Below are positions 18,938-20,490 of a stretch of DNA of 20,783 nucleotides, in pieces; position 1 is the first letter of the stretch; each line of letters starts with the position of its first letter. A program made the position numbers and the translations under genes. The notes under the pieces were generated by a model, which saw only the letters and a list, made by a program, of their open reading frames with translations, searched no databases and was not told where the DNA came from. Source of the stretch: a virus; IMG/VR virus record IMGVR_UViG_3300027668_000134, positions 1 to 20,783 of that record. One strand, written 5' to 3'.

Positions 18938-19483
18938 ATGGACACAAGCGACTTTGTAATAGAACTTCCACAAATAGAATTTAATCCTAATGACTTCTTA
19001 AGTTTCATAGACAACTATGAATTCAAAAACTACGTGAGTTCATATGGAAACAAGACACCACAAGATGTATGTTACGATAAGAAACTATTAGAAGAAGATA
19101 TAATACGACACTATCTTAATATCTTTAAAGACTTCAATATAAGTTTTGATTACATTGATGCTTCTAAAGGCACAGGATTTGCTGGTTGGCAGTTAGTTGC
19201 TGGTGATTTTAGAAATCAAGGACTAGCACGACACATCGATACCTATCGACCAACGTGTATAACGTTTCCACTTACATTCCCACAATCAATAGACTTCCAC
19301 GAAACAGATGAAACTGAAGATATATTGTTCACATATCAGTATCCTTCGTCTATTGTGATACTAAACTCGGGTACTAAATCACATTCAGTTAGCCCAACAA
19401 CCGATACCAGACTGCAATTCCAGTTCGATTGCTACAATTCTTGGGAAGAAGTGAACGAATTAGTTAAATTATTATATAAATAA
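18938..19483 (+). CDS. 2-oxoglutarate/Fe(II)-dependent oxygenase-like protein (putative)
   Basis: This 181-residue protein has a cupin-like second half. The metal-binding pattern is His99-x-Asp101 in ARHIDTYRP and His149 in TKSHSV, with Arg158 in TRLQFQF positioned to bind 2-oxoglutarate. The strands between them (CITFPLTFPQ, SSIVILNSG) fit the double-stranded beta helix. Family members hydroxylate proteins, nucleobases or small molecules, and they are frequent in marine phages. It is the last gene of the plus-strand operon, 1 bp after the ATP-grasp-like gene. It is followed by the promoter of a separate small RNA. The substrate is unknown. Confidence 0.68.
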   Translation: MDTSDFVIELPQIEFNPNDFLSFIDNYEFKNYVSSYGNKTPQDVCYDKKLLEEDIIRHYLNIFKDFNISFDYIDASKGTGFAGWQLVAGDFRNQGLARHIDTYRPTCITFPLTFPQSIDFHETDETEDILFTYQYPSSIVILNSGTKSHSVSPTTDTRLQFQFDCYNSWEEVNELVKLLYK

Positions 19484-19497
19484 AACTGTAAAAAGGG

Positions 19498-19526
19498 TTG
19501 ACATTGTGTTATAGTTATGTTATTAT
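19498..19526 (+). promoter_or_regulatory. Sigma70-type promoter of the small RNA
   Basis: TTGACA (19498-19503), a 17-bp spacer and TATTAT (19521-19526) with TG one base upstream give the same extended -10 design as the clpP and gp55 promoters. The -35, spacer and -10 match the clpP promoter exactly. The predicted start is near 19533. No gene with a ribosome site follows within 200 bases. Confidence 0.8.
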
Positions 19527-19532
19527 TAATGA

Positions 19533-19741
19533 ATCAACGAGTGTCTATGTCTCCTCTAAACCTCTCTCATCGACATTGGTACTTGTTGTAGACTCTACTT
19601 AGTAGAGTTAACACTTTAGAATTGAATAATCTTTCAATTTCAAAGTAAGATGGGTCAGACCTTAACGTACCATCCATAAAAAAGAACAAAAAGGGGTAAG
19701 GCGGAAAACCTGGTGTCATTAATTGATACTGGGTTTTTCTT
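19533..19741 (+). ncRNA. Candidate stand-alone phage small RNA with anti-Shine-Dalgarno-like loop
   Basis: About 205 bases lie between a strong promoter and an intrinsic terminator, with no convincing gene. Predicted helices are as follows. Outer helix CAACGAGT (19535-19542) pairs with ACTTGTTG (19581-19588, one G-U). An inner helix ATGTC (19547-19551) pairs with GACAT (19572-19576) and closes a 20-base C/U-rich loop (19552-19571) holding TCCTCT and ACCTCTCTC. A hairpin ACTCTAC/GTAGAGT spans 19592-19608. Another, AATTGAA/TTCAATT, spans 19620-19639. The terminator hairpin is at the end. The loop could pair with purine-rich ribosome sites, in the manner of C-rich regulatory RNAs in other bacteria. 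The only ATG reading inside (14 codons at 19547) has no ribosome site. It could alternatively be a long attenuated leader of the membrane protein gene that starts 42 bases after the terminator. Confidence 0.65.
19705..19741 (+). terminator. Rho-independent terminator of the small RNA
   Basis: AACCTGGTGTC (19707-19717) pairs with GATACTGGGTT (19725-19735) over 11 base pairs including three G-U pairs, with loop ATTAATT. The flanking AA and TT extend the stem. A run TTTTTCTTT follows directly. The G-U pairs favour formation in RNA of the plus strand. Confidence 0.8.
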
Positions 19742-19782
19742 TACCTAAATATACCAATACTATTGAGAGAAATCACATAAAA

Positions 19783-20028
19783 ATGAATTACATTGAAAAG
19801 ATGAAATGGATTGGAACGGGCATGTTTGTCTGTGCAGGCGTATTGATATCTATCAATATTCCAGAGTCTAAGTGGGCGTTTCCAATATTTGCAACGGGAC
19901 ACATCATAGCAATCTATGTATTTGCCACGCTGAAAGACAGGCCATTGCTTGTTCAGAATATGTTTTTCTTGTGTATTGACATGATAGGAATCTATCAGTG
20001 GTTGTTAAAACCTATATTTTTTGGTTAA
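19783..20028 (+). CDS. Small integral membrane protein of unknown function
   Basis: From ATG 19783 this is an 81-residue protein with about three hydrophobic spans: IGTGMFVCAGVLISI (10-24), AFPIFATGHIIAIYVFA (32-48) and QNMFFLCIDMIGIYQWLL (58-75), joined by short loops (ESK, KDRPLL). I start at 19783 because an in-frame start at 19723 lies inside the terminator hairpin, and GAGAGA (19765-19770) gives a weak ribosome site. Small three-span proteins of this kind recur in marine T4-like phages, but I know no function. Its last 17 bases overlap the convergent endonuclease gene. Confidence 0.65.
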   Translation: MNYIEKMKWIGTGMFVCAGVLISINIPESKWAFPIFATGHIIAIYVFATLKDRPLLVQNMFFLCIDMIGIYQWLLKPIFFG

Positions 20029-20449
20029 CACTACTAAGATACTCTTTAAGAATATTTGAACTTCCTACTCGTACATTAATAATGCCATTGTAGTAATCAT
20101 CTGTTTCAAGTACTCTACGGTCAAATTGTTCTTTGGCTTCTACATAACTTAATGCACCACGACTCGGGCAATAGTGTAAAATCTCACGTGTAAAATTCTC
20201 TGGACCATATTTTTTTACATCAGCATTCAAATGGTCAGACGAACCCCAATAGGTTCTCCAATCACTTTCTTTAAATCCACGCCTTTTGTTCTTTCTTCCT
20301 TTAAGAGGTGGTTTAGTAGTCTTAAATCTTGCTAACTTCTTACCTACGTATTTGCGATTATTCACAAGATTCGTAATTAGATACACAAATCCCTCAACAT
20401 TCTCAGGTAAATCATTTACAACTTTATTATTATATGTCCAATTACTCAT
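20012..20449 (-). CDS. GIY-YIG-family endonuclease (putative homing endonuclease)
   Basis: This 145-residue protein has the GIY-YIG core. FVYLITN (21-27) and KYVGKK (33-38) supply the two Tyr motifs, a basic loop follows (43-60), then SDWRTYWGSS (62-71), and Glu104 in SYVEAKEQ is the likely metal ligand. A C-terminal tail rich in NVRVGSSN is short, with no clear DNA-recognition module, as in the small free-standing GIY-YIG proteins of T4-like phages. Such genes cut phage DNA and spread into lineages lacking them. It is the only minus-strand gene on the right and converges on the membrane protein gene. A leader of about 90 bases follows a weak late-promoter-like motif at 20538-20546. Confidence 0.88.
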   Translation of the reverse strand: MSNWTYNNKVVNDLPENVEGFVYLITNLVNNRKYVGKKLARFKTTKPPLKGRKNKRRGFKESDWRTYWGSSDHLNADVKKYGPENFTREILHYCPSRGALSYVEAKEQFDRRVLETDDYYNGIINVRVGSSNILKEYLSSVNQKI

Positions 20450-20474: not shown

Positions 20475-20490
20475 TAGGTCTAAAGACCTA
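20475..20490 (-). promoter_or_regulatory. Hairpin in the leader of the endonuclease gene
   Basis: TAGGTC (20475-20480) and GACCTA (20485-20490) form a 6-bp stem around a 4-base loop, about 25 bases upstream of the endonuclease ATG. There is no T run, so it is not a terminator. It could affect translation or mRNA stability, but it leaves the ribosome site free. Confidence 0.35.

Follow-up and report, generated by a model that had tools for sequence, protein, structure and literature searches.

Among the anti-Shine-Dalgarno small RNAs (sRNAs) encoded by bacterial hosts are the CcsR or 'cuckoo' RNAs of Rhodobacter, which carry the CCUCCUCCC motif. The host-encoded anti-Shine-Dalgarno sRNAs of alphaproteobacteria also include SisA-D of Caulobacter, with a 10-mer motif (PMC12559287). 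On the phage side, the trans-acting RNAs listed in a review come mainly from temperate phages (PMC12197685), such as PreS of lambda and VpdS of VP882, Hfq-dependent, trans-encoded sRNAs that pair with mRNAs and have host or mixed targets, whereas P22 sar and PAK_P4as15, for which a block of phage mRNA translation is proposed, are described as asRNAs, i.e., cis-encoded (PMC12197685). For virulent T4-like phages, little is known of RNAs that act in trans.

Here we describe a small-RNA gene predicted in a 20,783-nt stretch of viral DNA from IMG/VR (hereinafter the window). As with sar and PAK_P4as15, the proposed action of this phage RNA is a translational block of a phage mRNA, but the gene predicted as its target lies at another place in the genome, in trans. 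In this respect it resembles PreS and VpdS, with a pairing that is predicted here, although the carriers are apparently virulent T4-like phages; sequence relation to PreS and VpdS was compared through Rfam only. Unlike SisA-D and CcsR, to which no relation was detected, it is a single-copy phage RNA that has one 5' hairpin with a constant loop of 19 nt.

Anatomy of the RNA locus

The segment 19498-19742 is almost certainly a stand-alone small-RNA gene: it opens with an extended sigma-70 promoter close to consensus, followed by a strongly folding stretch of about 210 nt and a terminator hairpin (Table 1). The -35 box TTGACA (19498-19503) and the TATTAT box (19521-19526), with TG ahead of it, are 17 bp apart, and TG-extended sites scoring at least 11/12 occur at only three positions of the 20.8 kb window, namely this one and those of clpP (4701) and gp55 (12781; spacer of 18). 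The earlier note had drawn attention to this promoter and to its design in common with clpP and gp55, and both observations hold; early synthesis of the RNA would follow from this shared promoter type. The stretch of about 200 gene-free bases was likewise recovered, in that no plus-strand ORF of at least 40 aa starts within 19533-19700. A TTG-initiated ORF at 19723 overlaps the terminator, with a conserved portion that begins only at 19783, and the sole other ORF over the RNA, of 50 aa, lies on the minus strand (19567-19719). The intrinsic terminator that had been called from the sequence is a strong hairpin, conserved and covarying in relatives; it was missed by a simple scan for terminators because the rule of the scan requires a T run after the stem, and here part of that run pairs with A's. 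ARAGORN found no tRNA or tmRNA in the window, and Rfam 15 gave no match in the window at gathering scores and, near the RNA, nothing relevant even with E values as high as 10.

Table 1. Features of the RNA locus and of the adjoining downstream gene (window positions)
Feature	Position	Strand	Basis or remark
Sigma-70-type extended -10 promoter, TTGACA-17 bp-TG n TATTAT	19498..19526	+	11/12 consensus
Predicted small RNA, about 208 nt	19533..19742	+	fold; 5' end inferred, 7 nt past the -10 box; 3' end at the T run
5' hairpin P1, 16-bp stem with one mismatch, defining element of the family	19535..19588	+	covariation
Constant core CUCCUCUAAACCUCUCUCA, pyrimidine-rich and largely unpaired; resembles an anti-Shine-Dalgarno sequence; predicted seed	19551..19569	+	identity among relatives
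Hairpin 2, lineage-specific stem-loop	19591..19609	+	fold; unaligned in most relatives
Hairpin 3, lineage-specific stem-loop	19613..19646	+	fold; missing from most relatives
Second conserved element GRUGGGUYAGACCUUAACGUACCAYC, hairpin	19649..19674	+	independent pattern scan, 30 contigs
Conserved A-rich linker AAAAAGMACAAAAAGG	19676..19698	+	alignment
Terminator hairpin and T-rich tail	19705..19742 (hairpin 19705-19737)	+	fold; covarying stem in 17 relatives
CTAAATA, T4-type late-promoter-like motif of the next gene, past the terminator	19745..19751	+	motif
Gene for a small membrane protein, a transcription unit of its own, outside the RNA	19783..20028	+	ORF, relatives

A perfect TATAAATA late-promoter octamer is located at the end of the upstream gene (19475-19482) and also occurs in L004 and L065; given this octamer, the RNA might be made late as well in that subgroup. 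The upstream gene itself (18938-19480) has no Pfam or PHROGs match. The membrane protein encoded downstream (19783-20025), which follows the group I RNAs defined below, is very conserved and yields a sub-threshold match to the PnuC/NMN-transporter family (PF04973, E 0.002). Farther downstream, a SegE-type GIY-YIG endonuclease gene is encoded on the minus strand (20012-20449), near a GGTCTAAAGACC palindrome at about 20477-20488.

A conserved RNA family in uncultured phages

Members of the RNA family, which is missing from Rfam, occur once per record in over 60 IMG/VR contigs, the longest of 342 kb. Two groups can be delineated: group I, which includes the window, with RNAs of about 130-250 nt, and group II, with RNAs of about 105-120 nt on contigs of up to 342 kb. 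The family was collected via a search for relatives of the upstream gene and scans with loop patterns; because the latter select for the loop, the collection was repeated loop-free. Among the loci found via the downstream membrane protein or a small basic protein, 61 of 62 contain the RNA, and in the only exception the record begins 39 nt before the gene. When records were picked by a distant unrelated gene, 15 of 32 were found to carry the RNA, five of the copies being diverged. Loss of both promoter and fold in related phages, which the earlier note regarded as an outcome that would speak against an RNA gene, is not what is seen: promoter, 5' hairpin and terminator are kept, including in records found via neighbouring or unrelated genes. 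In 36 of the 37 distinct copies, a promoter of the form TTGAC[A/T]-17-TGnTANNAT is located at a fixed 23-29 nt ahead of the loop; the remaining copy (L019) received an ambiguous automatic call, with another register preferred, and has the same elements visible in its sequence.

The location downstream of oxygenase genes, mentioned in the earlier note, does not hold across the family: the gene upstream of the RNA is an Hc1-like gene in L079-L081 and gp46 in L358, and three of the more distant oxygenase relatives among the records searched (G001-G003) lack the RNA. The three latter records were among the 14 searched with a covariance model of the 5' hairpin, which found one copy per record in 11. 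In the window, the gene for the Hc1-like histone H1 protein (PF07432, 17108-17281) adjoins gp46, and in L079-L081 the RNA directly follows the Hc1-like gene.

Outside this group of contigs, the exact loop pattern had no matches in 84,980 bacterial and archaeal species genomes, blastn of 50,697 phage records revealed no relative of the RNA, and the covariance model produced no match in PA5oct, Paride, Phosso or Atu_ph07 or in five bacterial genomes, with only 150 candidates scored per genome in the latter. Thus, no bacterial copy that would mark the RNA as host-derived turned up in these searches. The same model can be used to annotate this so far unannotated gene in many viral contigs.

The fold of the window RNA (-65.0 kcal/mol) is far more stable than that of 200 shuffled sequences (-42.0 +/- 4.1; z -5.64), and across 11 family members the z-score of the whole RNA ranges from -3.0 to -6.4. 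Together with the promoter, the terminator and the conservation of a family without Rfam match, this fold upholds the earlier proposal of a self-contained phage small RNA gene. All four stem-loops proposed previously (19535-19588, 19591-19609, 19613-19646 and 19649-19673) fold, but only the first and the fourth are conserved, and the fourth is missing from part of the family. A covariance analysis, proposed in the earlier note as a check, revealed compensatory changes. In the model-based alignment of P1, 8 of the 16 pairs are changed on both sides, and double-changed cells number 41, compared to 19.7 +/- 3.7 in shuffles; when the partners were slid, paired cells were halved. The model-based alignment is biased toward structure, and a plain MAFFT alignment agrees with it. 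The number of P1 pairs with a double change is at the shuffle level (8 vs 7.8), so that covariation is supported not by the pair count but by the double-changed cells, together with the covariation score and the slid-partner control. The outer stem of the second conserved element shows a GC-to-AU double change; this element, like the A-rich linker, is conserved only in part of group I. The A-rich linker and the U-rich tail are compatible with a possible dependence of the RNA on Hfq.

The stem of P1 is variable across relatives and its 19-nt loop, CUCCUCUnAACCUCUCUCA, is constant, with small changes only in the most distant copies. The core of the loop differs among relatives at one base only, including the loci found through proteins, and distant copies show deletions of 2 nt (L358 and L359) or 1 nt (L361). 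In the predicted fold, the mean unpaired probability of the loop is 0.90-0.94 (0.90 for the core).

Complementarity of the loop to a late-gene leader

The loop is complementary to AGAGGAG and to GAGAGAGG, i.e., to Shine-Dalgarno-like purines, and resembles a double anti-Shine-Dalgarno sequence. We slightly favor the possibility that the RNA works by pairing with ribosome-binding sites. In all seven contigs that contain both a window-type RNA and one late gene, the candidate target, the leader of this gene ranks first among 25-82 gene starts, with pairing energies of -24.4 to -33.8 kcal/mol, compared to -14.4 to -17.9 kcal/mol for the runner-up gene start; of 200 shuffled loops, one did equally well in rank. 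When 10 distinct target leaders were tested with 1000 shuffled loops each, none of the shuffled loops reached the observed energy, and the target leaders are the strongest loop sites in all group I DNA scanned, the RNA's own antisense aside. The leader was first spotted when the gene starts of several contigs were ranked, and five further contigs were ranked later, with their leaders already seen; given that two of the seven contigs have the same leader and all are related, the effective number is below seven. The leader directly follows a late promoter (e.g., TAAATACTAGTATAAGAGAGAGGGTTTGGAGGAGATATAGTG in L284), which would place both the 5' UTR and the Shine-Dalgarno sequence within the predicted pairing. 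The target gene is located outside the window, and the same gene would presumably be targeted in the window's own phage. The target protein (L271:4001-4705) is predicted to be all-helical (AlphaFold mean pLDDT 84) and is encoded in a neighbourhood that holds a tail-sheath-stabiliser gene; searches assigned it to no family and gave no convincing fold match, one unnamed viral protein was matched at E 2e-5, and tblastn detected no homologue in the phage collection.

The extended match is not shared by all carriers of the loop. In the related subgroup L288-L292, the leader contains only AGAGGAGA, and no extended match was found in the target leader in group II, although conservation of the loop is just as strong there. 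Hence, a single target cannot explain the conservation of the loop, and a further cause, either targets in the host or a protein, is required. The records G022, G025, G026, G029 and G033, first taken as RNA-less, carry diverged copies of the RNA, which leaves no clean RNA-minus control for the target leader.

Several other target ideas were tried. A role as a general repressor of late genes found no support, in that, in six genomes, late-promoter genes did not differ significantly from other genes in loop complementarity. Complements of 7-9 nt to the loop at phage gene starts showed no group-wide excess over 63 loop variants. Pairing with E. coli 16S, 23S and 5S rRNA was at or below the shuffle level, a 9-nt match of the second conserved element to gp55 was present in one phage only (G004) and is attributed to chance, and a group II candidate (MYHSETM..) reached significance in two records that share one leader but was weak in the ortholog in L368. 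Thus, out of the late genes generally, rRNA, gp55, the second element and group II genes, one late gene survived the controls, and this selection bears on the confidence in the following scenario.

On balance, we consider it probable that the RNA is a phage regulatory sRNA. Under this scenario, the host RNA polymerase would probably make the RNA early, from the strong sigma-70-type promoter, and transcription would stop at the RNA's own terminator. The 5' hairpin would present the 19-nt single-stranded loop as a seed that could pair with purine-rich ribosome-binding sites and so block translation. The best-supported target in a large subset of the window-type phages would be the leader of the single late gene (about 235 aa), where a pairing of about 20 bp is predicted to cover nearly the whole 5' UTR along with the Shine-Dalgarno sequence. 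The family offers a precise, mutable pairing hypothesis; if this is confirmed, the switch from early to late genes, otherwise ascribed to gp55-type sigma factors, would gain a layer of control by RNA. More tentatively, these RNAs could represent a new, widespread class in virulent phages that serves as a built-in timer, in which the early RNA silences the specific late gene, and perhaps host mRNAs too, via the constant loop until late transcription outruns the RNA.

Alternative readings and phage lineage

The constancy of the loop even in phages without a matching late-gene leader suits an alternative in which the same RNA gene acts mainly on host RNAs, either ribosome-binding sites of mRNAs or a host small RNA, the late-gene match being secondary and lineage-specific; an anti-Shine-Dalgarno seed would fit many mRNAs. 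We consider this alternative unlikely given that pairing with E. coli rRNA is no better than chance and that the match to a single gene in seven of seven contigs would be left unexplained. Somewhat less likely is that the loop is a decoy for a protein that binds single-stranded RNA, such as a C-rich bait for Rho: it is unpaired, YC-rich and constant independently of any one mRNA target, but its exact letters are kept, beyond mere composition, a Rho site is generally longer than about 20 nt, and the leader match is not accounted for.

An open NTG-SPLNLSH frame spans the loop (window:19547-19590), with small changes in distant copies, so the loop could encode a short peptide, [M/V/L]SPLNLS(H), in which case the unit would be a leader-peptide attenuator. 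The NTG-TCT-CCT-CTN-like frame is open in 39 of 39 distinct copies (one with CCT for TCT), the start is ATG, GTG or TTG and never CTG, and the variable loop base falls in a third codon position. Although this 7-residue stretch is conserved, the frame, the start signal and the C-terminus argue against translation: the Shine-Dalgarno sequence is weak (median -3.3 vs -6.5 kcal/mol for phage genes), the C-termini vary in both length and frame, L358 and L361 have frame-breaking deletions, and in L065 a Ser-to-Pro change accompanies a compensating change in the stem. The weak start signal, these deletions and the peptide-altering change in L065 make translation of the loop unlikely in our view. The least probable of the readings considered is that the RNA is a riboswitch or attenuator in the 5' leader of the downstream gene, as the succession of promoter, structured RNA, terminator and gene could suggest. 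The genes downstream of the RNA are of three unrelated kinds across the family, encoding the membrane protein, a SutA-like protein or a DNA ligase, which makes a cis leader unlikely. Moreover, in group I, CTAAATA intervenes between the terminator and the membrane gene, 22-42 nt ahead of the chosen start codon in those members of the window's group that have the motif inside the scanned interval. The late motif and the varied downstream genes argue for a separate RNA gene, more weakly so for group II, where the next gene follows closely and the motif is missing from most copies, so that a leader is less improbable there. The product of this next gene in group II (L053:4710-4877 and relatives), 55-66 aa long, gives a match to the SutA RNA-polymerase-binding domain (PF20661), above the gathering score in L053.

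The stand-alone RNA gene appears to be carried by a wide range of large, uncultured T4-like phages, apparently marine as the earlier note has it, that are distantly related to PA5oct and Paride. The gp55 and gp46 proteins are closest to those of PA5oct/Paride-type Pseudomonas phages, with 46-50% identity, and the order of the tail and gp55-gp47-gp46 genes is the same. The phage ClpP (window:4772-5362), which has its own TTGACA-17-TGnTATTAT promoter, is about 65% identical to proteobacterial ClpP, a similarity that points no further than to Proteobacteria as the donor.
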